From NCBI RefSeq assembly GCF_022201045.2, contig NC_068563.1, forward strand, positions 28,741,001 through 28,805,000: 64,000 nt of DNA, given 5' to 3'. The notes beneath the pieces are model-generated. The model ran no database searches, was not told the DNA's origin, and saw only the letters and a list, made by a program, of their open reading frames with translations. The position numbers and the translations under genes were made by a program. Each line of letters opens with the position of its first letter. The first letter of the stretch is position 1. Of this stretch, positions 17,152 to 57,048 are shown piece after piece. This DNA is from Citrus sinensis. Taxonomy: Eukaryota; Streptophyta; Magnoliopsida; Sapindales; Rutaceae.

Positions 17152-17153
<2 letters not shown>

Positions 17154-31249: not shown

Positions 31250-32347
31250 CACTTCCTTTTATGACAATAATAATGATGATTGATGATGATGATTATTGAT
31301 GATGCAACTGTGGTGATTACGATGAAAATGATGCAATTGTGATGACGATCATGAAGATGATGTAATTGTGATGACGATGCAGATTGAGTATTTTCTAGTC
31401 TAGCTTCATGAGCTAACAACATAGAATAAGCTTCATTGATGCTCATCTTAAGAATGTTTGCCTCAATATACACCACAACAGGATAATAAGACTCACCTAA
31501 ACCTGAGATTAAGTCAGTAATAAAATTTAAAGAACTAACTGGACTACCAGCAATAGCAAATTCATCAGTTATAGATCTTAGTTTGCTGAAGTAATATGTA
31601 ACAGTTATGGATCCTTTCTTAAGATTATTCAACATCATTTTAAGATGAACCTTTTTAGCAGCAGTTTCAAATCCAAATTGCTGTTCTAAACTAGTCCAAA
31701 GTTCTTGAGAAATTTTAGATATTACCACAATACTGAGTATCTCGACATTAATGGAGGATAGAAGCCAGCTCAGCAACATTTGATCATGTTTCTTCCAGAT
31801 AGCATATGCTGGATTTTATTGTACAATATCATCAGCATATGAAGAATCACCAGTGAGAAATTGATCTGGACAAGCTCGCGATCCATCAAGAAGGCTTTCA
31901 AGCTCATTAACTTTGACTGAAGAGAAAACTTATGATTTCCAAATTGTATAGTTGGATTTGCCAAGTTTGATTGGTGTTATGAATGTAAATGTTGAGATCG
32001 AGGATGAAACATTAGTATTCAAGCTTAAGGAAGCCATAAGAGTTGTGATCAGTTGGCTCTGATACCAAATCAGAGTTTATTTTGTATTTCTTATTCTGTT
32101 TGCAACTTGAAGAGAAAGTTGATGAATGCTAGATTTTTATTCAATCCATATTGAATCTGAATATACAATCTGTATTTATACTAATGTCCAAAACTTTCTG
32201 TACACACGCTAGATGCATGAGCTAAAACGCAACTAATTAACAGCCTGAAAACAATTTGTAACAACCTTGCTTACTCTGCTGCCACATCAGCAGAGTTAGT
32301 TAACTAACTATTCTAGCTTACATACTGAGCTACGTTTATTCTTAACA
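31250..32347 (-). mobile_element. LTR/Copia retrotransposon fossil (one LTR, primer site, gag region)
   Basis: Minus-strand fragment. An LTR of roughly 260 bp begins TGTTAAG at 32347 and is followed by a primer-binding site TGGTATCAGAGCC (complement at 32054-32066), matching initiator tRNA-Met. A Copia-type gag-like region follows to about 31.4 kb. The pol region and second LTR are absent, so this is a truncated, broken relic. Age cannot be dated without an LTR pair. The family is judged from the primer site and gag resemblance. Confidence 0.8.
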
Positions 32348-32882
32348 GATGAAGATGAAACTGAATTTTAATGTTGACGATGAAGAAGAAGAAATGAAAT
32401 TGACAGGAGGAAGAAGAAGATATTTGTGACGATGATGATGTTGATGAAGAAGATGAAATTTACGATGGATGAGTAACGAGGAAACTGCAGAAGAGAGAGA
32501 AAAAAGAAAGAAGAAGAAAAGAAGAGGGGGAAAAAGGAAGAGATAAAATAATAATAAAAACTAAAAGAAGAAAAATTTGTTATTATTAAAAGTATTACTA
32601 TTATTAACAATAATTTTCTTAGTAGTAATAATAATAATCAAGTAATAAAAAATAAAAAATAAAAAATGTTTATAATAAATTAAGGATATTTTATAATTTT
32701 AATATAATTTATTCTGATTATAAAATAAAATAAAAATATTAATATTAATACATTCTGATTCTTAGCGTTGAAGAAAATCAAAAAAGTTAATTCTTAAAGT
32801 TAAAAGAAAATCAAAAAGTTAAAGTAAACCAAAAAGTAAGCGGGAGAGACTCCTTCGTCCAACGGCTCACACTTTACACTCA

Positions 32883-32914
32883 GAACTTTTCAGAAATCAA
32901 ACTCTATATTTATA
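32883..32914 (+). promoter_or_regulatory. HSP70 copy A promoter: degenerate heat-shock element and TATA box
   Basis: GAACTTTTCAGAA (32883-32895) matches nGAAnnTTCnnGAA except that the centre reads TTT. TATATTTATA follows at 32905-32914, about 130 bp before the ATG. The intact copy B has the canonical element. Confidence 0.65.
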
Positions 32915-33042
32915 GCCACGCCAATTCCCTTCATTCTCCTTACGGAAGCAAACTAAAAATCAATCGGTGAACCCTAAAGCTCGCAAATCATCTATGCTTT
33001 TTTCTTTTTTTATTGTTGATAGATTCTTGATTTTGTTAATCG

Positions 33043-36000
33043 ATGGCTGGAAAAGGCGAAGGTCCTGCTATTGGAATTGACTTGGGCACGACTTACTCTT
33101 GTGTCGGTGTGTGGCAACATGATCGAGTTGAGATCATCGCCAATGATCAAGGTAACCGAACGACGCCATCTTATGTGGCGTTTACGAATACGGAGCGTTT
33201 GATCGGTGATGCTGCCAAGAACCAGGTCGCCATGAACCCCACCAACACTGTTTTTGGTATGTTCCTTAACTCCGTTGAACCTGATACTACTGATTCTGTT
33301 TGCGATTAGTTCTTTGATCATTATTGTTTAAACTGATCTGTTTGGGGGGGAAGGAAATAGAATTCAAGCGAAAATTCATGAGAAAAGAATAATGTAGATA
33401 AAATGGGAGAAAGGAAAAGGAAAGTTACTTCGCAGTCTATTGAATTTGTATTCAATTTTATGTGTATTTTATATCCATGCATTTAAGGAATCATTGTTTC
33501 TGTTTTAGTTCTTTAACCGTTCTTGTTGAAACTGCTTTGTTTGGCCGTGGAGAAAATAATGGGAGGTTCTAGGAGTTATACTCTGTTGGAGAATTTTGAA
33601 AAAAAAAAAAAAACTGTGAACTCAGAATTGCATCCCGATTTCAGATTTTTTTTTTTTGTTTTCAAATATGAATAATTTACTTGATTTAATGGTTTTTAAT
33701 TGATTTCATTTACCACATCGGGTAGTATTAATATTTGGATAGAATGTATTAATGTAACTATAAATACATTCCCTACGGTTAGTTACTAGTTTAGTTGATC
33801 TTTAGTGGACTGTTTAAATTACTAAAATACAACTCCTGCCAAAATAATAAATTATTAAAGAAAGCTTTGAGAACCAATGGGCAACATCACAAAACATTTA
33901 TGCTCAGTCGAAATTTACTGAAATTGAAATGGGCTGGAATGTGAATGAATTGAAATGAAAATGAGGAATGGAGAATGGAGATTAGAATAAATTATTTATT
34001 TGAAAATTTTTTGTTTGACCAGTGAGAAAATAATGTGAGTGTTGTTGTTGTTTAACTAATAATAACATATGAATTATTAATAATAATTATATGAATGATT
34101 ATTATATCAGTATATTAATTAATTAATTATAATAATAATATATTAATTATTGTGATTATTTATTCAAAAACCATAATTATTAATAATTTTGTTAATAAGA
34201 TATTAATATATTAATTAATTATAATAATATATGAGTTAATTAATTAATTATAAATAAGGACAATATGGATATTTTAAATTTTGAGAGGATAAAATAGTTA
34301 ATCTTATAAATAGATTTCCATTCCCTTCTTTCTCCATGGGAATAAAAAATTTAGTAATCATTCTCAATTTCAGGTGGGATCCGTCACTTTAATTTCAGGT
34401 GGGATCCATCACAATAATTAATAATAATATATTAATTATTGTGATTATTTATTCAAAAACCATAATTATTAATAATTTTGTTAATAAGATATTAAATTTT
34501 GAGAGGATAAAATACCACTCCTGCCAAAATAATAAATTATTAAAGAAAGCTTTGAGAACCAATGGGCAACATCACAAAACATTTATGCTCAGTCGAAATT
34601 GACTGAAATTGAAATGGGCTGGAATGTGAATGAATTGAAATGAAAATGAGGAATGGAGAATGGAGATTAAAATAAATTATTTATTTGAAACTGTTTTGTT
34701 TGACCAGTGAGAAAATAATGTGAGTGTTGTTGTTGTTTAACTAATAATAACATATGAATTATTAATAATAATTATATGAATGATTATTATATCAGTATAT
34801 TAATTAATTAATTATAATAATAATATATTAATTATTGTGATTATTTATTCAAAAACCATAATTATTAATAATTTTGTTAATAAGATATTAATATATTAAT
34901 TAATTATAATAATATATGAGTTAATTAATTAATTATAAATAAGGACAATATGGATATTTTAAATTTTGAGAGGATAAAATAGTTAATCTTATAAATAGAT
35001 TTCCATTCCCTTCTTTCTCCATGGGAATAAAAAATTTAGTAATCATTCTCAATTTCAGGTGGGATCCATCACTTTAATTTCTATTTCATCCATTATTCAT
35101 TCCCACTGTCAATTAATAAACACACCATTAAAAGACCAAAATACTCCTCCATGTAAAGTAATTGACATTGCATATTATAAAAAAAAAATCCCTAAAACAC
35201 ATTTATTTCACGTAAGAGAATTTCACAATAATCAATCACAATTTAGTAAAAAACCAACAAGGCAATTTTGAAATCATATTTCATTTTCATTTTCTAATAT
35301 AATGAACATGCACATAAACTAGATCATATCCTAATTTCAAGTACATCTAAACAAACCTTAAAAACTCATCCAAAACGAAAAAAGTAAAAATAAAAATAAA
35401 AACATCTTCATCTAGTAAACTTAAAAGCCTAAACTAATTACTAAACAAATCGCATAACACGCAAATCCACTGACTAATGCAACAAACCTCATTCGAGAAG
35501 TAGACTTAGTGACAACCTTGGTACCCTCACAAATAGTGTGCTTAGCTATCTCAATAGGAAGCACAAATCTCACAAAGTTTTGAATTTCCCGAGATGAAAT
35601 CATCGGTTTTTTCTTGTACCTCGTCAGCCTTAAGCTTCCTAAGCAAGCTTCTCGGAAATATCGTTGATGAAACTGTTAATAATTCCCATGGCTTTGCTCG
35701 AGTTCCAGTATTGAGATGGACTTGCTTCAGGATTTTGAAGATGTAGATCTTGTACGTCTTGATGCTCTTCTTCGCGCACTTCTTCTTCTTGTCGCTAGAG
35801 GTGGCTTCCTTTCAAAGTTTCCTCCTAGTTTCGGCTTTTTCTCCGCTGCGTCTTCATGGAAGATTGGAGCCAACACCAAAATCTAAAGATAAAATCTTTT
35901 GTAATCTTGATTTCTTCACAACTTTAGACAAAAAAGATGAAAATGGTGTTAGGTTTTTGCTTGTCTGAGAGAGAAAGGTAAGTGCATGTTTTATTTAGTG

Positions 36001-38061
36001 GAAACTTTAGTTTTCTTTTGTCCACTAATTATTATCAAAGCTCTGATTAATAAGGTGTAGCAGTTATAACTTCTGAGCTTCACTTTGAATTATTTAAAAA
36101 TTTAAATATGGTTTTACACGTTTATCCTTTCAAATTAACGTTATATGTATTTTTATACAAATGACAGGGGAAGTATTTATAATTACATTAATATATTCTA
36201 TCTAAGCGTTAATACCTCAAACCTCAGGGGAGGTCCATGAAAATTACCCCTACTTCATTTAATGAACAAAACAGAGCATTCTTAGTTTGCGACGATAAAA
36301 GAAAGTTACTGTGATTTTAGAATTGTATGTTGATTGTGTGTTTTGTTTGTATGGTGATATGCAGATGCTAAGCGTTTGATTGGGAGGCGATTCAGTGATC
36401 CTTTAGTACAAAAAGACATGAAACTATGGCCGTTCCAGGTCATTGCTGGGGCAGGTGACAAGCCTATGATTGTTGTTAATTACAAATGCGAAGAGAAGCA
36501 ATTTTCTGCAGAGGAAATCACCTCAATGGTTCTAACAAAGATGAAGGAGATTGCTGAGGCTTATCTGGGCACTACTATTAAGAATGCTGTTGTCACAGTA
36601 CCTGCTTACTTTAATGACTCACAGCGTCAAGCCACAAAGGACGCTGGTGTTATTTCTGGCCTTAAAGTAATGCGTATTATTAATGAGCCGACAGCTGCTG
36701 CTATTGCTTATGGGCTAGATAAGAAGGCAGGTAGTACTGGTGAAAAGAATGTGCTTATTTTTGATCTTGGTGGTGGTACTTTCGATGTCTCGCTTTTGGC
36801 CATTCATCAGGGTATTTTCGAAGTAAAGGCTACTGCTGGTGATACCCACTTGGGAGGTGAAGATTTTGACAACAGAATGGTGAACCACTTTGTTCAAGAG
36901 TTCAAGAGGAAAAACAAGAAGGATATTAGTGGAAACCCCGGAGCGTTGAGGAGGTTGAGAACTGCCTGTGAAAGGGCTAAGAGGACCCTGTCATCAACTG
37001 CACGGACTACAATTGAGATTGATTCTTTATACGAGGGTATTAATTTCTACACAACCATTGCAAGGGCTAGATTCGAGGAGTTGAACATGGATTTGTTCAG
37101 GAAGTGTATGGAGCCAGTGGAGAAATGCCTGAGAGATGCTAAGATGGACAAGAGCAGTGTCCATGATGTGGTTCTTGTTGGTGGGTCTACTAGGATCCCA
37201 AAAGTCCAGCAATTGTTGCAGGGCTTCTTCAATGGAAAGGAGCTATGCAAGAGCATCAACCCTGATGAAGCGGTTGCCTGCGGTGCTGCTGTGCATGCTG
37301 CAATCTTGAGTGGGGAGGGTAATGAGAAGGTTCAGGACCTCTTATTGCTTGATGTCACCCCTCTGTCACTGGGTTTGGAGACTGCTGGTGGAGTCATGAC
37401 TGTGTTGATTCCAAGGAACACCACTATTCCAACCAAGAAGGAACAGGTGTTCTCCACATACTCTGAGAACCAGCCCAGGATGTCGATCCAGGTCTACGAG
37501 GGTGAGCGCACAAGAACCCGTGACAACAACTTGCTTGGAAAGTTTGAGCTCTCTGGCATTCCTCCTGCTCCAAGAGGGGTTCCACAAATCAATGTGCGCT
37601 TTGACATTGATGCTAATGGTATCTTGAAAATTTCTGCTGAGGACGAAACCACCGGACAGAAGAATAAGATAAACATGAGAAATGACAAGGGCAGACTCTC
37701 TAAGGAGGAGAGAGAGAAGATGGTACAGGAGGCGAAAAAATACAAGGCTGAGGATGAGGAACACAAGAAAAAGGTGGAGGCGAAGAATGCTCTTGAGAAT
37801 TATGCTTACAACATGAGAAACACAATTGAGGATGAGAAGATCAGTGCAAAACTTCCTGCTGCTGACAAGCAGAAAATTGAAGATGCTATTGAGCAGGCCA
37901 TCCAATGGCTTGATGGGAACCCGCTTGCAAAGGCAGATGAGTTTGAAGATAAGATGAAAGAGCTTGAGGGCATCTATAATGCCAAGATGTACCAGGGAGT
38001 TGATCTATGGATGAGGATGGTCCTTCTGCTGGTGCTGGTAATGGTATGGCCCAAAGTTTGA
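33043..38061 (+). CDS. HSP70-like copy A, C-terminal EEVD lost; probably decaying
   Basis: Exons 33043-33256 and 36365-38061 give an open frame of 636 residues with the cytosolic HSP70 start [16 protein letters not shown], the phosphate loop [11 protein letters not shown] and [10 protein letters not shown]. The intron sits at the conserved plant HSC70 site (NTVF/DAKRL) but is 3108 bp against 576 bp in copy B, because of a tandem repeat and an H2B retropseudogene. Changes at normally constant sites include YGAAV to [13 protein letters not shown] to KISAEDET and TITNDKG to NMRNDKG. Nine bases are missing near LEGIYNAKM, and a frameshift just downstream turns the tail into hydrophobic sequence ending WPKV. 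A remnant of the old tail (PKIDDL) lies about 90 bp downstream. Without EEVD it should not bind TPR co-chaperones such as Hop or CHIP. It could still be transcribed, but it looks like a pseudogene in the making. Confidence 0.8.
33834..35059. repeat. Tandem duplication (period 685 bp) inside the HSP70-A intron
   Basis: The block starting CTGCCAAAATAATAAATTATT occurs at 33836 and again at 34521. Both copies pass through CAATGGGCAACATCAC, GGGCTGGAATGTGAATG, TTAATTAATTATAATAATA and end near TCAGGTGGGATCC. Differences are few, so the duplication is fairly recent. The unit looks like an AT-rich TIR element: a right end (AATAAACACACCA) near 35.13 kb resembles ends seen elsewhere in the window. Confidence 0.85.
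35480..35874 (-). pseudogene. Histone H2B retropseudogene in the HSP70-A intron
   Basis: On the minus strand, H2B blocks appear in order: a degraded start (GGCTCC.. near 35874), the basic tail [39 protein letters not shown] and [15 protein letters not shown], then [16 protein letters not shown]. These match the H2B fold through alpha-C. Several frame breaks separate the blocks and the normal C-terminal FTSS is altered. No intron is visible, but plant H2B genes are usually intronless, so processed origin is inferred from the solitary antisense insertion within another gene's intron. Copy B of HSP70 lacks it, so insertion followed the segmental duplication or it was lost from B. Confidence 0.85.
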
Positions 38062-38949
38062 GGCGGTGGAGGTGATGCTAGTGCATCCGTGGATGAGGAA
38101 TGTCTTTCTGCTGGTGCTGGTAGCGGTGTTGCCCCTAAGATTGATGATCTGATCATTTTTTCCTTTTCTTGCTTCTATTACATGTGATATTGTTCGGTTG
38201 TGTTAGCATAAGATATTGTTATGCTTTTAAGTAATGTCCTGTTTTTCCTTCGATCAGTTTTATCTAGTTTTGTGATCTTTCTGCTTGTGCATCGCTAGAA
38301 AAGTATAGAATGCGATGAACTAGATTTAAAAAAAAAAAGGAATGCCCAAACTATAAAGCTAGCTGTTCATAACAAGCTGTTCTAATTTGTTGATATTATT
38401 TTGATGAACGCAAATTGGTCGGGGAAGTGATGACCATTTCAATCATTGGTTTTTCTGGATCCAAGTTTAACGAGGGTCCTAAGGTCGTATGATATAGTGA
38501 TATACATGCAAGAAATATTTAATGTAATTGACATTCAAGAGTACGGTAACTACCTATACGGTAACCGCATGGTACCGCTTCATAAAAAAATTGCATCTAT
38601 GTAGCTCACGTTTCTCCTCGAGAGGATATGCGAAGGCTGCAATAAACTATGCCTTGGAAGTCAGAAACTTGTCATTGAATTAGACGGGGTTATTTTCATG
38701 CATCCCTAAAAGTATACCTTTTAGAAATTGTGACAACATTCGTAAATGATTGTAATAAATAATGATTAATGAGAACTTTACAACCGATTGCTACAATAAT
38801 TTAATAAGGTAAATTACTTAAATGCATACAATAAATGATCAAAGCGATATTAATATAACTGAATCATCTGTAACTAGTGGTTCTAGGAGAAGTTGGAGAT
38901 GACCAATTTGATTGATTTACGGGGTTATATCAATTTTTTTCCCCAGCAA

Positions 38950-41050
38950 AGACAACGATGATGGCGTGGCGGGGGGAATAGATGAGACCTTTAATTGTAA
39001 TAGACCATCAAATAGTAAATAAATATAAAAGGGGACATAAACCAAAAACGTCTAAATTTAAGAGAAATAACAAAGTCATAACAATGCACCAAAGAATGAG
39101 AATCAACGTCAAACTAGCAAAAAATAAAAGAAAAAAAAATTATCTCCTAACACGAGGGGCCTCCTATACATCTAGATGAATGATACCAGACAAACCAATA
39201 GGCAAACCTGAATATTCATAAAATGTTGACGCACCCATTAAGTACAAGCCTAATTAGCCATGAAATTAGCTGTAAAGGGAGCCTCGCTAAAAACATGCCT
39301 GACAAACATAGAGGGAGAAGTAGACATAAGCCAGACTCGACTAAGAAGATAAATATATTCCCACTGCACAGAGCCGTGAGAAGTAATACACGAAACCATA
39401 GTTGCCGAATCAGATATCTAAATAGCAGATTAGTAAGCTAAGTAACAAGCCATGAACCCTCGCAAACAACCATCAACTTAGTATAAAATACAGGTTAGTG
39501 CCCAAGAAAAGAGATTAAAGCTACTAAAACAAGACCCTGATAGTCACACGAAACACCATGAACTACAGACAGCCGAGGATTGCCTCGAGTGCGTCCATCC
39601 ACCAAAAGCTTTGCCACCCAAAATGACGGCCGCAACCAGGATCCAACCTAAACAACCTTAGAATCAGTGCAATAACTTTCAATTCTTCCAGAAACTGAGA
39701 GCCTAATACCCCTTGCAACTAGGAAGGTGTAAAACCTAAGGCAGAACTAGCAAGCCTAAAGTCAGAAATCGCCCTATGAACAACAACATCTACAGAAAAT
39801 GACATAGAATCGAACCTGAAAGAAAGAATTACTACCCTTCCAAACATGCCACAAAATGAAGTATGGAAAAAGAACTCAAATATATCTTCGAGTTAGGGTA
39901 CACTGTCGCCAATGAACAAGTAAGGCATAAGGAGTCAGAAAAAAACTGACCTTAAACCATATATAATGAAAATAGAGCCAAACATATCTAAGTCGTGGGC
40001 AATTAAGAAACAGATCCCTAGAAGTCTCAATAGCCTGAGCACAAAAATACCAAGAAATCATATAAAAACCCTTCGAGCATAAAGCGTCATTAGTTGCCAA
40101 AAAATAATATGATAGCTGCTAAAGAAAAAAGAAAACCCGAAAAGGAATATGCGACTGCAAAATAAGCGGAAAAACCACATCCTAGGCCTAGAGCCACGCA
40201 CAAGCTCCCAAGCAATTTGCAACTAGAAATCACCATCACGAGCCAAATCCTACCAAATCAGATCTGAACCCACTCTAAAGATAAGAACCAATATAATCTG
40301 TTCAACAACCAAGAAGGCAAAATATTCTAAAGCTTTCCCCTATCCTAGACAGTACCCCTCCAATAAAGGAAATCAACATCGGGGATGTTGCACTAGAATT
40401 ATACAAAAACAAGGGGTAAGAATGCAATTAGCAATCATACAAAAAAACTATAGGCCGCACAATTAATCATCCAACACGCATGGGGGCTTAGTTGCACAAC
40501 GAATAGAATAAAAGACGTCTCAGAAAAGGAAAAGAAAAGTAATGAAATTAAACCATGCCCGGATGTTCAACTCTATTATATTTAGCGTTCATAAATGAAG
40601 CCTATAAAGAACATTGATCCCGAAAACGCCACCAAAGCTTTAGCTGAAGAGCCTCAGCCATATCAGCAAACAATCAAAAACCTAGATCACCTTCCTTAAC
40701 TGGACAACGAACCAAGGCCATCTACACCAATGAATCCTCCTTCTAATATCAGTATCAACTCATAGAAAAACGAGTGAAAAGCCTTCCTAGATGCTGAATA
40801 ATAGTCACAGGTGGCCGAAGAACATGAAATAAGTGCAAAGGATATAGGATAACATATGTTGAAGAAGCACTAGATTCCCACCAAGGGAAAGCAGCCGATT
40901 ATTCCAACCCAAAATCCTATATTCCTAACCTTTCGAATCATATCATCAAATAGGAAATCTTAAGATGTCCCATATAAACTGAGCATGCAAGATAAATAAA
41001 TGAAAACTGACGCTGTTGAAAACTGGTAATTAAATGAACAATGGCGTGGC
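38950..41050 (-). mobile_element. LINE (L1-like) relic in unit A, 5'-truncated
   Basis: Minus-strand remnant. Readable pieces are a zinc-binding zf-RVT-type block (ETSRDLFLNCPRLRYVWLYF near 40.0 kb) and, further 3', a degraded RNase H-like region that is clearer in copy B. The upstream end corresponds to the C-terminal part of reverse transcriptase. No long open frame survives. The same relic is at the matching place in unit B, so the insertion predates the duplication. Confidence 0.75.
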
Positions 41051-42170
41051 AAGAAGAAGAAAGGTTTATATCAATTTCATGCCATAGTATCATGCATGAT
41101 TTAAAATCTAATTAGATTGATTATTTAATGAATTACCAACTTTAAACATGATTTTAAATTTTAGGGGAGGATTGGCAAACACTCAATGGGAAGAAGACAA
41201 TTTAAGGGATTGGCAGGTCATATCCACCCGCACCAAACAAAAGTTATGTAACTTATTTTGTTCGTCAATAGAAGTTGCTTCAATGTTCATCCGAGCTTGT
41301 CATCTAATTAGTAGCACGCATGAATTAATATATTAATGAGATTTTTTTTTTTTTTGTCTACTATTCCATGAAGTCACAGTTCAATAAAGAAATGTATTTA
41401 GCAGAATCAACAGAAAAAGAGATCTTATATTTAGCTCGACTCTTGTTTTATTCTGGCTTTTGAACTAGTTTTGTTTTTATGCGAGTTTAACGACATTTTA
41501 CTACTAAAACATGAATTATAATGGTTTAGACTTTGTATTATATATCTTACAATTTTAGACAGTTTAAAATCATTTAATAGCGAACTGGTAAATTGTTGTT
41601 TGCATGAATAGAGATTCAAGTCTCATGTTATATATTAGAAAAGAATTAAACTTTTATTTTAGATATATATTCAAAAAATTTTATTTTATTTATTTTTTCT
41701 AAAAATTAGTAAAATATAAATTCGTCAAATGAAACTTCTTGAAAAAAAAAACAACCTGTCAAACTTTTAGAGACTATTTCAAATATTTAAAAGTTGATAA
41801 TAATAGCTTGCCGTAAGATCGATCTGTTACGAAAGGAAACCCTGAAATAAATACAAAGCGTGTTTAATTTGTTATTGATTTTCTTTTCAGATAAACAAAA
41901 AACAAATAAATAAAATAACACTGAAATATGTATGAATTGAGCTCCTTGAGTTGTGCTTTAGTTAAAATTGCTATAATTTATTTATTACTAAATCAAAATA
42001 GAGAAAGTAGGAACAGTCGTCTTAATTCCAGAGCCATCCATATCTCTACATTGCGATTGCTTAATTAGAAAGAGAAGAGGTAAAAAAAGAAAAGAAAAAT
42101 GAAACCACTAATTAAGAGAATTCGAATATCCTTGTTATTACAATTTTAACATCACTTTTGATTTAGATTT

Positions 42171-42891
42171 TCAGTCAGTTCTCTCACATCCTCGGCCAGA
42201 GAAAAAAATCAAAGAAGGGTTGATGAGTAGAACCCTTTTCAATGCGAGGAGTTACTGAATTCTCAAGAGAATTTGAAGGCAGCAAAGGAAAGACAGGCAA
42301 AGTTTCTTGATTACTGATGTCCGAGTTATTGATGTTACTAGTTTGCATCAAAACATTGCAATGCGGTTGCTCAGGATCATAGCCTGCACCCACATAACTA
42401 GTTGTGTTGTCCATTTCCTGATCAGTTTTTGCTCTCCTCTTTGGCCCACCAGGGATCCGGGATTGACACCTTGGTGCATTAAGGATAGAACCCTAAATCA
42501 TTCCTTGGTAAGTAATATGGCCCACAGACTACTGAAAATGAAAAAGGACAAATCCCACGTACGTTGGACTCTTTAGTTTTACGAAGTGATCAAATAAAAT
42601 GTTGAAGGGCAAAGAGAAGGAGATTGAAAGAATTAGGCAGCAAATCAATTGGATGGAGACGAGGCCTAGCAGTGAAAAATGCAAAAACAAAATGCTTCAC
42701 GCAATCAAACGGCTAAAACAATATCTTAAATACGTTACTAGAAAACGACCACTAGATAAGAGCCACTTTATGTTTAGTCTTCAACACAAGAATCGAACCC
42801 ATTTGCACCGTTTGTGGAAGAAGGAAACAAGAGGAGCAGGCTGATGAGTGGACTTGTGAAGGTAACGATTGATAAAATCGATTCTCTCTTG
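42171..42891 (-). pseudogene. WOX2 remnant (unit A), homeodomain missing
   Basis: Aligns with the intact WOX2 in unit B. Retained: exon 2 with [32 protein letters not shown] and QPFFDFF, the intron's right-hand part, and only the last about 25 codons of exon 1. The alignment breaks at TTCTCTCTTG (42891), so the whole homeodomain is absent. The WUS box is damaged (TLPLFPLHP in B reads TLPVFPLLP here, with the following residues deleted). An extra A in an A-run shifts the end frame, and about 190 bp around the intron donor are missing. It cannot make a WOX protein. Confidence 0.92.
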
Positions 42892-42904
42892 TATGTTAGA
42901 TGGA

Positions 42905-43430
42905 GCGATTGACCCAAAGGTGAATTTTTAGGTGTGTAATACAAAAGCTTAGTATGTTAGATGGAGCTTATCATTTATAAATTTAAGTAATTTTTTTTTC
43001 CATCAATTAATGTGGTATATAATTAAAAACATATTTTGGATGAAACTACCACCAACGATCAGTCCTTCCATTTGATACGCTTGAGTTATTCGATTATCAT
43101 ATTTCAGTTACCAGGATTTTAACTCTAATACTACTTGTTGGGAGATTGAATTTAGAATTTTTAGATTCCAAACTTAAAAAGTTAATTTATTAAATGGAGA
43201 GACCTACCCTACTTATAAACTAAAGTAATTCTCTTTTAAAAATTAATATGGAACACGATTTAATAATTAATATTCTTATTAATAATTCGAATTTATATTT
43301 ACAAAAAAAAAAAGAATAATTCAATTTTCCTGTAAAAATTAATGCATGACAATAATTTACGAACTGTGTCGGCATACATATTCTATTTGATTAAAACATT
43401 TATGCCACAACAATTAATAAAGAAAATTGT
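42905..43430. repeat. Dispersed repeat, copy 2 (about 525 bp)
   Basis: Same orientation and order as 22730-23250. It lies exactly in the gap between duplication units A and B, immediately after the WOX2 breakpoint, so it may mark the junction. Confidence 0.75.
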
Positions 43431-43760
43431 ATTTTTCATAAGCCGCTGCTCAAAGAAAATAAGATTAGTTTAATTACAGTGAAAATTGAAAAGAAAGTAT
43501 GGAAACGACTTGACGAAGGAACGCACAGACCACGCATTCCGTATTTTTTAAAAGAAACTAGAATCATCCAATCAGGCAACGACCCAGAGCCAGCATTAAC
43601 AAATAGTAAACGACTAACAAACCAATCACCGCAAAGATTCAAAAGAAAGCCTACGGCTAAGATCTTTTAACAAGACACGTTAGAAAGCTCTGGAACCCGC
43701 TAGAAACCAAAAGGGAAGCGGGAGAGACACCTTCATCCAACGGCTCACACTCCACAATCA

Positions 43761-43792
43761 GAACTTTCCAGAAATCAAACTCTATATTTATA
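43761..43792 (+). promoter_or_regulatory. HSP70 copy B promoter: canonical heat-shock element and TATA box
   Basis: GAACTTTCCAGAA (43761-43773) is a perfect three-unit GAAnnTTCnnGAA heat-shock element. The TATA box TATATTTATA follows 9 bp later at 43783-43792. This supports heat-shock-factor control, in addition to likely constitutive expression of an HSC70-type gene. Confidence 0.75.
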
Positions 43793-43926
43793 GCCACACC
43801 AATTCCCTTCATTCTCCCCCACGGAAACGAACTAACAATCAATAAGTAAACACTAAAGCTCGCAAATCATCCGTGCTTTTTTTCTTTTTTTTTTTATTGT
43901 TGATAGATTCTTGATTTTGTTAATCG

Positions 43927-46452: not shown

Positions 46453-46968
46453 ATTTGAGGATTTATGCTTAATGTTGTTTAATGATTAGGGGTTGAGTTG
46501 GGAGTGTGATCTTTTCTTCCTTTTCCTGCTTCTGTTACATGTAAATACTGTTTCCTGGTGTATGCATAAAGATATTATGTTTTTAAGCAATGTCTTATTT
46601 TTCCTTCCATCAGTTCTATCGATTTTGTGATACTTCTGCTTCTGCATTGCTAGAAAATGCGATGAGCTTAAAAAAGAGAATGCAAAAACCATACAGCTAG
46701 CTGTTCATAATAACAAGTTGTGTTTAATCTGTTGATATTATTTTGAGGAACGCACATGGTCGGGGAAGTGACGTTTCGATCACTGATTTTTTGGATCCAA
46801 GTTTGAGGTGGGTCTGAAGGTCGTACGATACAGTGATATAGATTCAAGAAATATTCAATGTAATTGCATGGTACCGCTTCATAAAAAATTGCATCAATGC
46901 AGCTCATGTCTCTCCTCATAGGATCTGCGAAGACTGCAATAAACTATGTCTCCGAAGTCAGAAACTTG

Positions 46969-49900
46969 AAAACCTGAAAGAACAAGAAAACATATATTCT
47001 TTACCAAATTAATTCTAAGTTCTATAATAAATTGACTATATCAGTAATGAGGTGGCCATTGTCCTGAACGCTACTTAGCCATGAACTTTACACCAAGAAA
47101 GCTTAGAAGCAAACCAAAAACTTTTCAAATGCATGACATCGGGGCATCAAATTACCGATTAAAATCAAAAGTTGGAACTTGAAATAGAAAACAAAATTGT
47201 AGGGGAAAAAAGAAGCAACTTTCATAGCATAATCTTAAAATTTTCCTTCCTTTGATACAGAATAATGGCAAGTTGATGGCAACATCTGCTCTTACATTTC
47301 TCAATACCGTGTCAAGATAAGAGCAGCTCATTTGCACTGAGGTGCGGGCGAAGGCAAACACGTACCTCGTGCTCTTCTGGACCCACACGATGCTTAGGTA
47401 CCATGATTTCTAGACCAGTTCCTGTTTCATCGCCATATGCTTCTAGCTTGGCATCATCTGGAATCCGAGTTGGTAGTGGGATTTCTCTTATGAACTCTCC
47501 AGGAGGACAGTGCTCTGGAGATGGATCTGTCAGCTTGAATGTTCTATCATTTCTCTGGATATACGGCATACATGCTGTGCTCACAGATGATATCTTTACA
47601 ACACCATGGGTGAGATTATTCCACCAAGTAACTTTCACCCTTTTAAGATCAGCAAAAGGCAAACTGATAATTATTAGGTATCCTTGTTCATCCTCATAGA
47701 TGGTTTTTGCAGCTGTAACCGGCCCGTAAACATTCCTCATTACCCCAGTAAACTCGTGCAGCCAGGGAGGTTCTATGGGGTGCATTTCTGTATCCTGAAT
47801 TCTATCATTATGCTGATTGTTGAGTAAACAACACTCTTCATCATTCCCATGTAGAAACAAATCCTTCTTTCTCTTGTTGCAAACATGTGAAAGATCTAAT
47901 CCATCACCATTTGAATGGCTCACAGGACGTGTTGACAAATTCAAAGCAGACCCATTAAGCAATTTTTTTGGATGAGAATTTGAGTGAGTCTTTAGTGGAG
48001 GAAGAGGTCTATCAAGCTCGAACTCAGTGTTGGGGAGGTTTCTCCATGAAGAAAATTCACTTGCCTCAGGTGGGACTGAGAAATTTAGATCCCTACCTGT
48101 GAGTTCCATCCACCTTTTTTGCTCTTCCTCATCAATACCCTTGAGATTTGGAGATGAAACAACCTCAATCCCATGCACACACTGTGGATTTGAAAGACCT
48201 CTATAATGTTTCCGCTGCATTCTGTGAGACCGAACAAATCCCTTCTCAACACTAAATGGAAATGGACGCTCTCCCTGGCGTGAGTGCCCATTCATGTAGC
48301 TCCTGAGCTGCATCTTACCTAGAGCATTCTCAGGCCTTTCCTTAAAGACCCACATGTACATATTCTCCATATCATGCTGAACCAAGAACACCTCAAGCTC
48401 AAGATCTGTCTTATCAAACTCTAAAAACCCATTACTGTCCCTAATCACCTTGCACTTGGATTTCTCGTTCAACACAGGCTTAAAATAATAAGTAAAGAAA
48501 AACCAAGCACCCCATACACTATCTAATCTCTTTGCGCATTTTCGTCCGGATTTAGATGCATTGAGCAAATTATCGGACTCATTAACTTGGGGTCCAAGGC
48601 TAACATCTAGAATATCAAACGGGTCTGTACTCCATGATGGTGGTGGAGGACTACGCTCCGCAGATAAAGGAAGGTTAATATCAGGCGGTCTAGAGAGAAT
48701 CATCGATCGATTCATCTCCCGGTCTAGTTCCTCATTTGATACCCCGCTTGAATCCATGGATAAAAGCGTAGATGGGTGGTGATTCTCCATAGACAAACTT
48801 GTAAGCAAATCTTCACCCATTTAAACCTTATACACAAATTGGGTATTTGTATTTGGGTGTAAAAATCAAATATCCAATCCCTCCAAAGTCAACCAAAACA
48901 CTCGGATAACTCAACCTTGCTACAATCACCAAAGACCAAATTCCTCAAACAACACAAGTTTAAATCTTTAACTTCACAATTGATAAATCATGCACTCTAT
49001 TGATTAATACAGTGATAAAATATAAATCTTTCTTTCTTTTTCCTATGTCTAATAGTGATATAAATAATAAAAAACGTTACCCTACACCATAGAAAAAGGA
49101 AGGAAAGAAAAAAAGTCTAATTACAAATTAGAGTTTGACAAAAACAAGAAGGATCTGAGAGATTACCTTTTTATGGATTTGGCTTAGAATCCACAAAAAC
49201 TGAGATTTCTATTTTTTTTCTCTTGGCAAATCCTCATCCCTCCAATACGCAGAGCTAGAGAGAGATTTGATTGACGATGAAAGGGAAGGTAACGGTTTCT
49301 GTTAAAGAGATGGTCTAACTTGGACGGCGGAACCAGACGTTTGGTGACGGTAACAATTTTTGGGTATAGCCAGATTTTGTTTCAATGTGGTGAGCCTTAC
49401 CACCCAGATATCAAGAAAGGCTGAATGGTTTTGGGCCCAACCTGTTTGTTTGGATTTGGGAAATGAAGATTTTCCCCAAAAGAAAGTGGGAAAGTCGATG
49501 GCATTTTCATGCTTCCTATATCGTCTTGTTCCAAAAAAATTTCAATATGTTACCTCTAGGTGTGTTATTACTTTCTTTATTTCCAAGGTATGTTATTTGG
49601 ATCTGAATTCAGTGCTCAAATGAACTTTGTGCTGATCTTTTAAAAAGATACGATAAGTAATTATTGAATAAGAATAGAAAGTCAATTAAATATTAATTAA
49701 AATTACTATAAATACACAAATGATATAGGATTATGAAAAGTTAAACATAACTTATATAATATTAAATCTTAATTCATACTAAGAGAAAAAATGAAGACAT
49801 CTATTCCTAAATGCTAAATTAAGAGAAATTTGCTCATGTAGTCACATGGCCACAACCACAAGGAGAGACTTGAAGTCTTGAACCCCTTGATCAAATCGAT

Positions 49901-50403
49901 GATGAGGTAAGGAGGCATCATAGACCAAAATATTGTTTATAGAGAATTTGATTTCTATCATAACTATTAGTACATTTATATTGTAATATTAAGAGAAAAA
50001 AGCATATCTTAATAATAATTTTTTTTTTAGTTTTCTATTGTTATTGAAGATTCATAATGAAATTTGCTTTATTAAGGTCCAAATTTCAGCCTTCTTGAAG
50101 ATGCTTTCTAAAGTTTATTTTGTAACACTGAGAGCTAAAATATATGAAACTATTTAAAATAAAGCAAAAAATTAAGTGATTTTTAAGGTTATTGACGAGT
50201 CATCATTGTACCACTCAATAAAAGAAAAATTAAATTAAATTCATTTTTTGTTTTATATATTCACTAATTTCACGCAACATCAATTTACATTTCAAAATTT
50301 GGGACTTGATCTACGTAAAGCACTATTAGATGTACAATAGAAGTATATTAAATAAATAAAACACTTCACGTGAAAACACCCAAACATTCTTTAACGTCGT
50401 TTT
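46969..50403. other. Block present only in unit B (contains the HSP20-like gene)
   Basis: In unit A the sequence passes directly from GTCAGAAACTTG (ending 38671) to TCATTGAATTAGACGGGG, while in B the same two sides are separated by about 3.4 kb. No target duplication or terminal repeats are seen at the edges, so loss from A is more likely than insertion into B. The part from 48821 holds the HSP20-like gene's promoter and leader, then AT-rich DNA without a gene. Confidence 0.8.
47312..48820 (-). CDS. HSP20-like (alpha-crystallin-domain) plant protein, 502 residues
   Basis: Single open exon. The N-terminal 100 residues are polar and acidic with Pro-rich stretches (INLPLSAERSPPPPSW). A conserved central part follows (VWGAWFFFTYYFKPVL, FLVQHDMENMYMWVFKERPENALGKMQLRSYMNG). 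The C-terminal third (from about residue 350) has an alpha-crystallin-like beta-sandwich: GYLIIISLPFADLKRVKVTW, then GEFIREIPLPTRIPDDAKLE and GTGLEIMVPK, which parallel the end of small HSP domains. It lacks the terminal IxI motif, so it is an HSP20-like protein rather than a classical small HSP. A widely conserved plant family of unclear function (Arabidopsis FYD/At3g12570-like, from memory). A leader intron may lie upstream, since a GT donor occurs near 49.17 kb on this strand. The gene runs opposite to the HSC70 gene and their 3' ends converge. Confidence 0.88.
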   Translation of the reverse strand: MGEDLLTSLSMENHHPSTLLSMDSSGVSNEELDREMNRSMILSRPPDINLPLSAERSPPPPSWSTDPFDILDVSLGPQVNESDNLLNASKSGRKCAKRLDSVWGAWFFFTYYFKPVLNEKSKCKVIRDSNGFLEFDKTDLELEVFLVQHDMENMYMWVFKERPENALGKMQLRSYMNGHSRQGERPFPFSVEKGFVRSHRMQRKHYRGLSNPQCVHGIEVVSSPNLKGIDEEEQKRWMELTGRDLNFSVPPEASEFSSWRNLPNTEFELDRPLPPLKTHSNSHPKKLLNGSALNLSTRPVSHSNGDGLDLSHVCNKRKKDLFLHGNDEECCLLNNQHNDRIQDTEMHPIEPPWLHEFTGVMRNVYGPVTAAKTIYEDEQGYLIIISLPFADLKRVKVTWWNNLTHGVVKISSVSTACMPYIQRNDRTFKLTDPSPEHCPPGEFIREIPLPTRIPDDAKLEAYGDETGTGLEIMVPKHRVGPEEHEVRVCLRPHLSANELLLS

Positions 50404-50689
50404 GTCAATTATTAAACAATGTTATTTTCATGCATCCCAAATTATACCTTTTAGAAATTAGCTGGAAATTAACTTTGAAAATGAAAACATTCGTAAATGA
50501 TCATAACAAATAATGGTTAATGAGACCTTTAAAACCGATTGCTACAATAATTAATAAGTTAAATTACTTAAATGCATACAATAAATGATCAAAGTGATAT
50601 TAATATAAGTATAACTGTATGATCTGTAACCAATGGCTCCAGGAGAAGTTGGAGATTACCAATTTGATTGATTCACATGGTTATATTAA

Positions 50690-52800
50690 TTTTTCTTCCC
50701 CCAGTAAAAACAACCATGATGGTGGGGGTTTAGGCAAGATGTCTAACTATAATATAGATGATCAGATAGCAAAGAAATATAGGAAGAGACATAAACCAAA
50801 ACATCTAAGTCTAAGAGAAATAACAAAGACATAACAATACACCAAAGAACAAGAATCAACATCACACTAGAAAAAAATAAAAGAAAAGAAAAACTATCTC
50901 ATAACATGAAGGACATTCTGCGCATCTAGATGAATGATGCCAGACAAACCAATCGGCAAACCCTGAGTATCCATGAAATGCCGACCCACCCAATGAGTGC
51001 GAGCCCAATTAGCCATGAAATTAGCAGCAAAATTAAGTAGCCTCGCCAAAAACGTGCCTGCTATAGAGGGAGAAGTAGACATAGGTCAGACTCGACCAAG
51101 AAGATAAACATAGTCCCACTACACACATCCATGAGAAGTAATACAAGAAACCATAGTTGCCGAATTAGGCTCCTCAATAACATATTAGTAAGCTAAGTAG
51201 CAAGTCCCAAACCATCGTAAACAGCCATCAACTCAATATAAAGGATCGGTTGCTACCCAAGAAAATAGTCTGAAGCTGCTAAAATGACACCTCGATAATC
51301 ACACAAAACAGCACCAACTGTAGACAGCCCAAGATTGCCTCGAGTGCATCCATCCACTACCCAGATGGTGATCGCAACCAGGAGACCAACCTAAAAGGCC
51401 TCTGAATCGATGCCATTAACTCTCAATCCCTCCGCAAATTGAGAGCCCAATACCCCTCGCAACCAGAAATGTTTAAAATCAGAGGTAGAACTAGCAAGCG
51501 TAAAGTCAGAAACCAACCTGAGACTACTAATATCTACAAAAAATGGCATCGAATCAAAACTGAAAGAATTACAACCCGTTCAATCATGCCACAAAATGAT
51601 CAATCATGCCACAAAATGAAGTATGGAAGAAGAACCCAAATATATCTTTGAGTAAGGGCACATCGTCGCCAATGAACAAGTAAGGCATAAGGTAGAAAAG
51701 AAACTAACCTCGAACCATATATAATGAAAATGAAGCCAAATGAATCTAACCTATGGACAATTGAGAAACTGATCCCTAGAAGTTTTAGTGGCCTAAGCAC
51801 AAAAATATTGAGAAATTATGTAAAAATCCCTTAAGCATAAAGCATCATCAGTTGCCAAAAAATAACGTGACAGCTGCTAAAAGAAAAAGGAAACCCAAAA
51901 AGGAGTACGTCGCTACAAGATAAGCAGGAAAACTACGTCCCCAGGCTCCCATGTACTTTGCAATTGAAAATTGCCATCACGAGCCAAATCCCACCAAATT
52001 AGGTCCGGACCCACTCTAAAGATAGGAAACAACATATCTGGTCAACAACTGAGGAGGGTAAAATATCGTAAAGCTTTTCCTTATCCTAGACAGTACCCTC
52101 CAATAAAAGGAAACCGACACCGGTGATGCTGCACCAAAATTATACAAGAATAAGGGGCAAGAATCCAACTAGCAATCATACAAAAGTACAAGCCACACAA
52201 TTAATCATCCAACGTTTATAGGGCTCAATTGCATAACTAATAAAAAAAAGGCGTCTCAGAAAAGGAGAAGAAGAGTCAAAATTGAACCATGAATGATGCT
52301 CTGCTCTATAATATTTAACATTCATAAATGAAGCCCACAAAGAACGTTGATCCCGAAAATGACACCAAAGCTTTAGCTAACTCAAGATCCTCAGCCAAAT
52401 CAGTAAATGACCAAACACCTAAACCACCCTCCTCAACTGGAAAACGAACCAAAGGCCATCTACACCAATGAATCCTCCTCCTAATATCAGTATCAACCCA
52501 TATGAAATGAGTGAAAAGCCTCTCTAGATGCTGAATAACAGTTACAGGTGGCCAAAGAACATGAAATAAGTGTAAGGAATATAGGACAACTCATGCTGAA
52601 GAAGCACCAACTTCTCACTGAAAGAAAGCAACCGATTAGTCTAATCCAAAATCCCATATCTCTAACCTTTTGAATCATAGCATCAAAATAGGTAATCTTA
52701 AGACGCCCTATATAAACTGGGCACCCAAGATAAATAAAATGGAAACTGACACTGCTGAAAACCGATAATAGAATAAACAATGGCCTGGCGAGAAGAGGAA
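50690..52800 (-). mobile_element. LINE (L1-like) relic in unit B, 5'-truncated
   Basis: Better preserved than the unit-A copy. Minus-strand readable parts: reverse transcriptase C-terminal region (FHFIYLGCPVYIGRLKITYF; MSCPIFLTLISCSLATCNCY near 52.5-52.8 kb), a degraded zinc-binding block near 51.7 kb, and an RNase H-like end (LLNFAANFMANWARTHWVG near 51.0 kb). Many breaks are present and nothing functional remains. Confidence 0.8.
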
Positions 52801-53652
52801 ATGTTTATATTTATTCTATGCCATGATATCATGCATGAACAAAAGGGTTTTAAAATCTAATTAGATTGATTATTTAATGAATTTCGAACTTTAAACATGA
52901 CTTTAAATTTTGGGGGAAGATTGGCAAACATTCAATGGGAAGATGACAATTTACGAGATTGGCCGGTCGTATCTTCACACACCAAACAAAAGTTATTTAA
53001 CTTATTTTGTTCATCAATCGAAGCTGCTTTAATGTTCATCCGAATTTGTCACCCAATTAGTAGCACGCATGAATTAATATATTAACGAGATTTTCATTGT
53101 TCTTTTTTGTCTACCATTCCATGAAGTCACAGTTCAGTAAATAAATGTATTTAGTAGAATTAACAGAAAAGGTGATCTTATATTTAGCTCGACTCTTGTT
53201 CTATTCTGGTTTTTGAACTAGTTTTGTTTTTATGCGAGTTTAACAACATTTTACTACTGAAACATGAATTATAAAGGTATAGACTTTATATTATATATCT
53301 TAAAATTTTAGACGGTTTAAAATCATTTAATAGCGAACTAATAAATTATTGTTTACATGAATAGAGATTCAAGTCTCGTGTTGTATTAGAAAACAATTAA
53401 AATTTTATTTCAGATATATATTTAAAGTTTTTTATTTTATTTATTTTTTCTAAAAAATTAGTAAAGTATAAATTCATTAAATGAAACTACTTAAAAAAAA
53501 AAAACACGCTGCCAAACTTTGAGAGACTACAAATATTTTGAAGTTGATAATAGTAGCTTAGTGTAAGTTCGATCTATAATGAGAGGAAACCCATAAATAA
53601 ATATAAAGCGTGTTTAGTTTGTTATTGATTTTCTTTTCAGATCAATAAATAA

Positions 53653-55352
53653 GGGTCATTCTATGATGCCATGATTGCAATTACAGCATCAATACCGTAA
53701 TTAAACATAAATTGTATAAATAAAAAATAAAACTTGTAAATCAACATCAATTACAAAATAAAACATAAATTTTATAAATTAAACATAAGACTTGTAAGTG
53801 GAAAGTAAAACGAGTGAATTAATATAAAACTGGTAAATTGATGTATTATTAGTAAATAAAATAAAAACTTACAAATATAACATAAAACTCGTAAATTAAC
53901 ATTAAGTGCAAAATAAAATATGAATTTAAAAATTAAATATAAGATTCGTAAATTGAAGATGAAACAAATAAATTAATAGAAAACTAGTAAATTGATGTCC
54001 TATTAGTGAACGAAACAAAAAATTACAAATATAACTTAAAACTAATAAATGAACATTAACTGTAAAATAAAACATAAATTTTGAAAATGAAACAAAAGAC
54101 TATAAAGAAAAGGTAAAACAAGTAAATCACTTTAAAATTGATAAATTGATGTATTATTGATAAATAAAACAAAAATTTACAAATATAATATAAAACTAGC
54201 AAATCAACATTAAGTGTAAAATAAACATAAATTTTGGGAATGGAACATAAGACTTGTAAATGGAAAGTAAAATAAGTAAATTAATATTTTTATAGTAAAC
54301 AAAACAAAAATTTGTAAATATAATATAAAACTAGAAATCAACACCAACTGTAAAATAAAACATAAATTTCAGAAATAGAACATAAGACTTGTAAAAGGAA
54401 GATAAAACAAGTAAATTACTATAAAACTGGTAAATTGATGTATTACTAGTAACTAAAATGAAAACTTACAAATATAACATAAAATAAGTAAATCAACATT
54501 AAATACAAGATAAAACATAAATTTTGTAGATTATGCCTAAAACTTATGAATAAAAGGTAAAATAAGTAAATTAATATAAGAGTTACTACCAAAAATAAAA
54601 TAAAGTTCATAATTGTAAAACAAAAACTCATTCTAATGTTTATTACCTTATATTTTTTTATTTAAATTGAAGAATGCTAGTTTTGTATTTATGTAATAAG
54701 TGTGATGTTTTGTTAAGAATGAAATTTATTCCCATAATCATATTTTTAAAAAAATATTATTTTAATGTCTTTCATGATTGTTGTAAGATGAGATTATTTT
54801 GCATCTTTCTGCATTTTCTCAATAACAACTGTAAATGGTCTCTAAGTATAAGTAAAAAGTTTGAAACTACATGAAGTATACATAAGACTCAAAATTAGAT
54901 ATAATTTTATTGATATATCATATGTGTCTAGTAATATAAGATTTTTTTATTATTATTTTTTTGCTTGATCCATATCAAGATAAATAATTGTGCTTAATTA
55001 ACTTGTGTAATAAATAAATATTATTATAAAAAATAAAAGATATAAAAATGTCCTAGAATAAATTTAGAATTTATGGTTAAACCAATTAAATAACACTTAT
55101 TCTACTTTTTTCAGTATAATTTTTTATTTAATTAATGAGTAATTTTTTTGTTTAATTAAAAAAATTTGTAAATAAATAAAATATTTTTCACTAAAATTAT
55201 GTAGAAAAAATGTTAATTTTTTAAATAATTAATAATTTTATATTAATTTACTGATTTTATTTTATATTTATTAATTTTATATATAATTTATAATATTTAT
55301 ATTATTATGATATTAATGTCGTAATCTTTATTACGGCATTATAGAATTCTCC
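53653..55352. mobile_element. 1.7-kb non-autonomous TIR element (Mutator-like) with internal tandem array
   Basis: Left end GGGTCATTCTATGATGCC and right end (reversed) GGAGAATTCTATAATGCC are about 44-bp inverted repeats with roughly two-thirds identity. Flanks AATAAATAA (53644-53652) and AATAAATTA (55353-55361) form a 9-bp target duplication with one mismatch. Unit A keeps an unoccupied AATAAATAA at 41905-41913 in the matching context, which supports insertion into B after the duplication. The interior is AT-rich, holds tandem repeats and encodes no transposase. Confidence 0.78.
53760..54600. repeat. About 150-bp AT-rich tandem array (about six units)
   Basis: Each unit follows the order AAACATAAATTTT, AAGACT(T)GTAAA, AAAACAAGTAAATTA, GGTAAATTGATGTATTA, AAAACTTACAAATATAA, AAATCAACATTAA. 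Unit starts fall near 53760, 53925, 54068, 54223, 54356 and 54513. Divergence is moderate and one unit has an internal deletion. Confidence 0.85.
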
Positions 55353-55838
55353 AATAAATTAACAATGAGATTTGGTCTCCCATCAAAATTAGATAGGTGG
55401 CGCCCTTGCAAAGGATGCGAATTCTCTTTTACTTTCCAGATTCAACGTATACATTCCCCATGCAATTACTCGGTGGGGCAGTTAAAAACTCATTTCAACA
55501 AAGTTATTGGTGCATAAATAACGACATGAAGGTTACTAATTATACATAGGACCTTTGATTAATAAAATTAAAATATAAAAAAACACTAAAATATGTATAC
55601 ATTGAGCTCCTTGAGTTGTGCTTTTTCTAAAATTGATATAATTTATTTATTGCTAAATCCAAATAGAGAAAGTAGAAACAAACAGATTCGTCTTAATTCC
55701 AGAGCCATCCATATCTCTACATTGCAATTGCTTAATTAAAAGAAAAAAGGGTAAAAAAGAAAAGAAAAATGAAACCACCATTAAGAGCATTCGAAGATCC
55801 ATGTTAGTACAGTTTTAATATCACTTATGATTTTGATT

Positions 55839-57048
55839 TCAGTCAGTTCTCTCACATCCTTGGCCAGAGAAAAAATCAAAGAAGGGTTGATCAGCAGGAT
55901 CTTTTTCAATGCAAGGAGTTATTGAATTCTCAAGAGAATTTGAAGGCAGCATTGCATTAGTTTTTGCTTGTAAAATTCCAGTTGGGTGCAGAGGAAAGAG
56001 AGGCAAAGTTTCTTGATTACTGATGTCAGAGTTGTTGATGTTACTGGTGTGCATCATAACATTGCACTCCGGTTGCTCAGGATCATAGCCTGCACCCACA
56101 TAACTGGTTGTCTTGTCCATTTCCTGATCAGTTTTTGCTCTCATCTTTGACCCACCAGGGATTAACACCTTGGTGCATTGTGGATAGAACCCTAAATCAT
56201 TCCTTGGTAAGTAATATGGCCCACAAACTACTGAACATGAAAAAGGAAAAATCCCACGTTAGACTCTTTAATTTCTCGAAGTGTTCAAATAAAATGTTGA
56301 AGGGCAAAGAGAAGGAGATTGAAAGAATTAGGAAGCAAATCAGTTGGATGGAGACGAGGCCTGGCAGTGAGAAAAGCAAAAACAAAATGCTTCACGCAAT
56401 CAAACGGCTAAAACAATATCTTAAACACGTTACTAGAAAACGACCACTAGATAAGAGCCACTTTACGTTCAGTCTTCAACGCAAGAATCGAGCCCATTTG
56501 CATGTAAAGAAGACAGCTTGGAACAAAAATTATAACCTGACTAAAATAATTATTAATTAAAAGAAAGATACGAACTACGAAACCCAGGAGGAATTGAGAA
56601 ACAAAAAACTTAAAAAAATAAAAGCATATTCATAAATTCCGTGACCCAAATTCAATGTGTGTGTGTGTGTTTGTATATGTATATATAACTAACCGTTTGT
56701 GGAAGGAGGAAACAGAGGAGCAGGCTGATGAGCGGACTTGTGAAGGTAACGATTGATAAAAGCGGTTCTCTCTTGCTTCTGCTTCTGTCTTTGCCTAGCC
56801 TTGTGATTTTGAAACCAGTAGAACACATTCTTTCCTTCAATGTGACCATAAGCCCTAAGCCTAGTTGTTATTTGCTGTATCTGTTCAGCGCTTGGTGTCC
56901 TAATGCCTTGCGCATACAAGGATTCCAGCATGTTTATTTGCTCTTTTGTCGGGTTCCATCGTGAACTACTCGACAGAGTCGTTCCACCACCACCACCACC
57001 ACCACTAACCATGTCCATGTTATTATTATTATCACCATCACCCTCCAT
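55839..57048 (-). CDS. WOX2: WUSCHEL-related homeobox 2 transcription factor
   Basis: Two exons, 56694-57048 and 55839-56227, join across a GT-AG intron (phase 1) to 247 residues. A Gly/Asn-rich start ([10 protein letters not shown]) precedes the WUS-type homeodomain (about residues 27-92): [56 protein letters not shown]. Exon 2 begins with VCGPYYLP. The WUS box [11 protein letters not shown] lies near residue 185 and the end reads [10 protein letters not shown], as in WOX2 proteins. WOX2 is a nuclear factor that patterns the apical domain of the early embryo. The intron contains a (GT)n run and an antisense open frame that is not considered coding. It is the intact partner of the truncated remnant in unit A. 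Confidence 0.95.

Follow-up and report, generated by a model that had tools for sequence, protein, structure and literature searches.

In a 64,000-nucleotide stretch of the Citrus sinensis genome (contig NC_068563.1; hereafter the window), we found two collinear blocks in the same orientation, each holding an HSP70 chaperone gene and the homeodomain gene WOX2, in whole or in part. The blocks are the product of a real, direct duplication event, after which block B was kept and block A has been decaying: HSP70-A has lost the terminal EEVD motif, amino-acid changes number 30 in A against 5 in B, and the parts of the blocks have a common level of transversions. Taken as a whole, these observations are very probably explained by one local duplication, in which B would be the parental locus or its equivalent and A a daughter whose three genes met three fates. 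An earlier note on this DNA had described two direct blocks with opposite fates and had proposed a self-comparison of the window as a check. The comparison bears out this description, and the outer limits given there, 32828 and 56775, are right within a few bases.

The self-comparison considered self-matches of at least 100 bases, from a total of 26, and the two blocks were assembled from four main pieces and one short end piece. Positions 32826-33718 of A pair with 43704-44613 of B at 90.4% identity, 36256-38671 with 44611-46968 at 87.5%, 38669-41902 with 50402-53652 at 80.9%, 41899-42807 with 55564-56502 at 86.2% and, for the short end piece, 42807-42891 with 56692-56775 at 94.1%. The main pieces scored 3,072, 3,033, 1,240 and 1,144 bits, while the best of 20 Markov-shuffled copies of A scored 38 bits against B. 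Once realigned, the blocks agree at 6,520 of 7,357 columns (88.6%). By eye the homology starts slightly ahead of the BLAST pieces, so that block A extends over 32812-42891 and the homologous part of block B over 43690-56775, both on the forward strand. HSP70 intron 1, the intergenic sequence and a retroelement relic can all be aligned between A and B, as expected of a segmental duplicate at the DNA level. The pair thus resembles known local segmental duplications with pseudogenisation, being direct, sharing intron, intergenic sequence and relic, and decaying on one side. We ruled out that HSP70-A is a retroposed pseudogene, as intron 1 is still present in it.

The gene order in B is HSP70, a 502-codon gene on the reverse strand, the retroelement relic, a transposon-like insert and WOX2, also on the reverse strand. 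The order HSP70, LINE (long interspersed nuclear element), WOX2 given in the earlier note is the same in both blocks but incomplete, since it leaves out the 502-codon gene of B. Its further suggestion that the duplication had linked a chaperone gene to an embryo regulator does not hold: both blocks contain both genes in the same order, and their linkage is thus older than the duplication. Our literature search found no paper joining WOX2 and HSP70 with tandem duplication or with synteny.

HSP70-B (43927-46452, forward strand; exons 43927-44140 and 44717-46452) encodes 649 amino acids and ends in EEVD, which starts at residue 646. Its exon 2 frame matches Pfam HSP70 with an E-value of 1.5e-228; a search for its relatives in viral contigs gave one pattern match and no confirmed relative. 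In HSP70-A, exon 1 (33043-33256, forward strand) differs from that of B by one residue. Exon 2 (36365-38061, forward strand) remains open to gene codon 616 and can be aligned to B as far as AKMYQG, with a 3-residue gap; it then continues into a frameshifted tail that lacks EEVD, and behind this tail comes another tail-like coding stretch, which is diverged. The intactness of HSP70-B and the loss of EEVD in HSP70-A were thus rightly noted before. Six landmark segments are identical in the two proteins, of which we take five to belong to the ATPase domain, with the ATP-binding signatures, and one to the linker.

Synonymous divergence (dS) of the HSP70 pair, which had also been proposed as a check, was 0.10-0.12 by three methods; together with the intron 1 distance of 0.10, it agrees with the distance of 0.117 measured on a clean noncoding set of 2,686 columns (HSP70 intron, flanks, intergenic sequence and WOX2 intron; 14.5 indels per kb). 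Nonsynonymous divergence (dN) was 0.03 and the pairwise dN/dS ratio 0.24-0.30, which is high for HSP70. We polarised 37 of the 39 differing amino-acid codons against Chlamydomonas HSP70A and human HSPA1A, the other two lying in exon 1 and past the 3-residue gap. The changes fall on A in 30 cases and on B in 5, with 2 undecided (30 of 35 polarisable changes; binomial p 2e-5). Where both references agree, 22 changes occurred in A and 2 in B (binomial p 4e-5). The decay of the protein is thus one-sided.

The number of changes in HSP70-A is nevertheless too low for a copy that was free from the start: 30-34 were seen, versus a mean of 62-78 expected under neutrality since the duplication. Neutral simulations were run at rates of 0.099, 0.107 and 0.1255, which bracket the clean noncoding distance, and at none of the three did any of 5,000 runs yield 36 changes or fewer. 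Across 603 codons the A branch shows no indel, versus about 13 expected at the clean noncoding rate (4.8-7.3 with lower indel counts), a shortfall that is indicative because indel-prone runs are fewer in coding sequence. The lack of stop codons is weak evidence against neutrality, as it arises in 143, 305 and 242 of the 5,000 runs made at the respective rates. Differences by codon position were 22, 12 and 53 for HSP70, and 11, 4 and 10 for the WOX2 3' exon, a weak contrast (p 0.07). Judged from its sequence, HSP70-A has not been neutral since its birth, and its past constraint is significant: fewer changes than neutral imply that selection held it for some of its history, or that B corrected it. 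The earlier view that one whole unit is decaying is therefore not supported as a uniform process: WOX2-A is broken and the 502-codon gene undetected in A, but HSP70-A has 616 open codons and past constraint.

WOX2-B (55842-57048, reverse strand) is intact, as stated earlier, with a homeodomain (Pfam PF00046, E 1.4e-15) in exon 1 (56692-57048) and the motif TLPLFPLHP, which we take to be the WUS box, in the 3' exon. Its counterpart in A consists of two remnants on the reverse strand. The exon 1 remnant (42808-42891) comprises about 28 frameshifted codons that begin just past the homeodomain, and the 3' exon remnant (42174-42559) has an in-frame stop, frameshifts relative to B and a 39 bp gap inside the WUS-box region. 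A tblastn search recovered only residues 92-112 of exon 1 of WOX2-B, plus the broken 3' exon. The homeodomain is thus absent from A as claimed, but its loss by decay does not follow, because block homology ends at 42891, three residues beyond the homeodomain. As the homology itself stops there, the gene could have been cut at the block border, and WOX2-A may have been truncated when A arose or shortly afterwards, rather than worn away.

The 502-codon gene (47312-48820, reverse strand) is an intact single-exon gene found only in B, between HSP70 and the relic; tblastn detected one copy in the window and none in A. At the corresponding junction in A (38669-38671), B has 3.4 kb including this gene, and the triplet TTG is common to both. 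The region shows only weak inverted repeats and no clear terminal repeats. The shared TTG and a gene without clear terminal repeats make a microhomology deletion in A simpler than an insertion into B, and we infer from these sequence features that a 3.4 kb deletion removed the gene from A. The gene may be FYD, with an HSP20-like protein. Neither the whole protein nor its C-terminal 155 residues matched any Pfam family at E-values up to 10, and a comparison of those 155 residues with the sequences of solved structures gave no support for HSP20-like or FYD likeness. No relatives were confirmed among three pattern matches in viral contigs and eight in prokaryote contigs, and the predicted structure (mean predicted local distance difference test score 34) was too poor for use. 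In PMC3526319, Arabidopsis At3g12570 is named FYD, and PMC6707343 gives At3g12580 as the locus orthologous to Hsp70-4 genes. The consecutive numbers of these loci suggest that they are adjacent in Arabidopsis. The 502-codon gene, a putative FYD, adjoins HSP70 here in a similar manner.

HSP70-A and HSP70-B differ in their 5' flanks. The upstream region of HSP70-B (43442-43689, forward strand), in which an imperfect heat-shock element starts at 43683, has no match beside A at E-values up to 0.01. B further possesses a perfect heat-shock element, GAACTTTCCAGAA, at 43761-43773 on the forward strand, whose counterpart in A, at 32883, carries one core mismatch. A TATA-like box is kept in both copies, 139 and 145 bases ahead of the ATG. 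The differing 5' flank and the mismatched element would have weakened heat induction of HSP70-A, a likely reason for relaxed selection on it. To the left of block A lies a copia-type gag fragment (31249-32350, reverse strand). It is accompanied at 32056-32067 by a primer-binding-like site, perfect over 12 bases, and, by eye, by a stretch resembling a long terminal repeat up to about 32349. On the right, a repeat occupies the space between A and B (42892-43441). Its portion 42918-43441 is 78% identical in BLAST to a second copy at 22733-23259, and by eye the likeness extends back to about 42892, where block A ends.

Each block has also received an insert of its own. Intron insertions had been noted in HSP70-A; there is one, located in intron 1 (33719-36258) and about 2.5 kb long, and not several. 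Imperfect inverted repeats of 50 bases lie close to its two ends (33725-33774 and 36166-36215; 84% complementary); inspection by eye revealed no clear target-site duplication. The insert contains a 574 bp direct repeat (33823-34396 and 34508-35081) whose 99.0% identity is far above that between the blocks. In B, the stretch 53653-55567 is absent from A. It includes an element of about 1.7 kb (53653-55352), whose terminal inverted repeats are imperfect (28 of 41 bases) and which has a possible 9 bp target-site duplication, plus a further 215 bp. Within this element, units of about 150 bp that are about 75-81% alike form a tandem array (53697-54580).

The decayed retroelement relic was delimited by eye at 38991-41070 in A and 50750-52800 in B, on the reverse strand in both. 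A relic is thus present in both blocks as the earlier note had it; its name LINE is less secure, and we call the relic LINE-like after the B copy. When this copy was read with X at stops, one of three frames matched RVT_3 with an E-value of 0.005, at 17.1 bits below the Pfam cut-off of 21.6. When the relic was searched in pieces, one of seven from B gave a weak RVT_3 match (E 0.031) and none of three from A did. The relic provides an internal control for the date of the duplication. Transversions are similar in the relic (98 of 2,034 columns, 4.8%) and in the clean noncoding set (114 of 2,686, 4.2%; p 0.36), whereas transitions are 2.2 times as frequent in the relic (284 of 2,034 versus 174 of 2,686; p 1e-17). 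At cytosines, transition rates in the relic were 0.32 in CG, 0.22 in CHG and 0.16 in CHH contexts, versus 0.12, 0.15 and 0.10 outside, with the biggest gap at CG; in HSP70 exon 2 they were 0.17 in CG and 0.02 in CHH. Nearly equal transversions and raised transitions are in keeping with one event plus methylation-type decay. The simplest reading of these patterns would be one date for all block parts, with a relic that predates the duplication and has undergone deamination of methylated cytosines. A separate date for the relic was considered and is unsupported by the transversions. If 2e-9 to 7e-9 substitutions per site per year are assumed, the distance of 0.117 corresponds very roughly to 8 to 29 million years. 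Within the relic, C in B faces T in A at 160 sites and the reverse holds at 124 (p 0.04), so the A copy may have lost slightly more cytosines than the B copy.

The history that we propose would have begun with the copying of a segment that started in the HSP70 promoter, took in HSP70, the 502-codon gene and the relic, and ended within WOX2. B would be the parental locus or an intact equivalent and A the daughter. WOX2-A, a dead fragment at the block border, would probably have been broken at or near birth, and the 502-codon gene would have been lost from A through the 3.4 kb deletion at 3 bp of microhomology. HSP70-A would have stayed under partial constraint for a considerable share of its existence, before losing its EEVD tail, gaining the intron transposon and changing at conserved residues. 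While the block structure, the losses of sequence, the one-sided decay of the protein and the shared level of transversions are shown by the blocks themselves, the parenthood of B, a deletion in preference to an insertion of the 3.4 kb, the sequence in which parts were lost and the promoter as cause are inferred. Several points weigh against this history. Plain unequal crossing-over predicts a native left flank in A and the junction in B, and the left flank of A is not that of B, although it could have been replaced later. A may have entered the region upstream of B already truncated, or it may have lost its two ends at a later time. The transversion level of the relic lies slightly, though not significantly, above that outside. 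Lastly, HSP70 codons 540-616 (about 37.8-38.0 kb in A and 46.1-46.4 kb in B) hold 12 synonymous changes, a synonymous divergence of 0.40 versus 0.12 overall; 5 of 5,000 permutations reach 12, for a window picked post hoc. One clock does not explain this excess, which possibly reflects conversion from another HSP70 or chance.

The difficulty at the flanks would be eased if the duplication had been a larger, classical tandem one, with the whole of WOX2 and the whole promoter, and the ends of A had later been lost by deletion and transposon insertion. The repeat at the right end of A and the copia fragment with its primer-binding-like site at 32056 on the left are consistent with this scenario, which we regard as a serious, if less probable, possibility: it requires two extra losses, one per end of A, and the region upstream of HSP70-B finds no match beside A at E-values up to 0.01. 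Misplacement of two haplotypes in tandem is an assembly error known to occur, but hardly credible as the origin of blocks that differ by one whole gene and two large insertions, at a noncoding distance of about 0.12 that is several-fold the usual heterozygosity. Tandem HSP70 genes are also known to convert each other, and conversion by B rather than selection might have kept HSP70-A open; a dS of just 0.021 in codons 232-308 points that way. However, the longest run without a synonymous change, 75 codons, is reached in 657 of 5,000 permutations, and silent distances in intron and exon agree. As the main cause of the open frame, gene conversion is thus unsupported, and we consider it distinctly unlikely.

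A last alternative is that HSP70-A is not decaying but functions as an Hsp70 without EEVD. It lacks EEVD, and the C-terminal domain is gone while the alpha part of the substrate-binding domain is kept. PMC10687569 describes plant cytosolic Hsp70T proteins, which lack EEVD, and among them T1 Type I, which also lacks the C-terminal domain. HSP70-A is like T1 Type I in these losses, in its kept nucleotide- and substrate-binding parts and in its closeness in sequence to full-length HSP70. It differs in that a local duplicate lost these parts, through a frameshift and a rearranged tail, and in being a single copy, not part of a cluster of three or more such as that paper describes. HSP70-A looks like an incipient Type I gene, a candidate for the T1 lineage. 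As a functional Hsp70T of the T1 kind, it would keep the ATPase and substrate-binding functions without handover to TPR co-chaperones, which is compatible with the 616 open codons, with changes below the neutral number and with the landmark segments identical to B; Hsp70T genes are moreover widespread in plants, according to PMC10687569. Against this, in the plants which that paper examined T1 transcripts proved difficult to detect, 22 of the 30 changes derived in A hit residues common to Chlamydomonas HSP70, human HSP70 and B, the tail is frameshifted and the 5' flank is unlike that of B. We therefore find it unlikely. That HSP70-A is a young Hsp70T in formation, freed from EEVD and native heat control and selected as a chaperone uncoupled from the Hsp90/ubiquitin hand-off, appears quite improbable too; if true, it would allow the origin of a T1-type gene to be dated.

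Under the favoured history of a single local duplication, the event is an ordinary one with one copy decaying, and it reveals no function or principle past known duplicate decay. Its value lies in uniting in one event three routes of duplicate loss, namely a gene cut at the border, a gene deleted and a gene slowly relaxed, and it could show how plant Hsp70 genes without EEVD start.

Three other features of the window lie outside the blocks. At 58567-58657 on the reverse strand, ARAGORN called a 91-base tRNA-His (GTG). By eye it resembles an intron-containing plant tRNA-Tyr, and the tRNA-His call is probably an artefact that arose because the program ran with its bacterial setting. Pieces of a Mutator-type transposase (DBD_Tnp_Mut, MULE and SWIM matches) were found at 24810-26546 on the forward strand and, at 26985-29919 on the other strand, an Ulp1 protease (Peptidase_C48) with a sub-threshold DUF1985 match; together they resemble a Mutator-like element (MULE) that carries Ulp1. 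Finally, a 145 bp palindrome at 17143-17287, which matches its reverse complement at 86% identity, is possibly a small inverted-repeat element.

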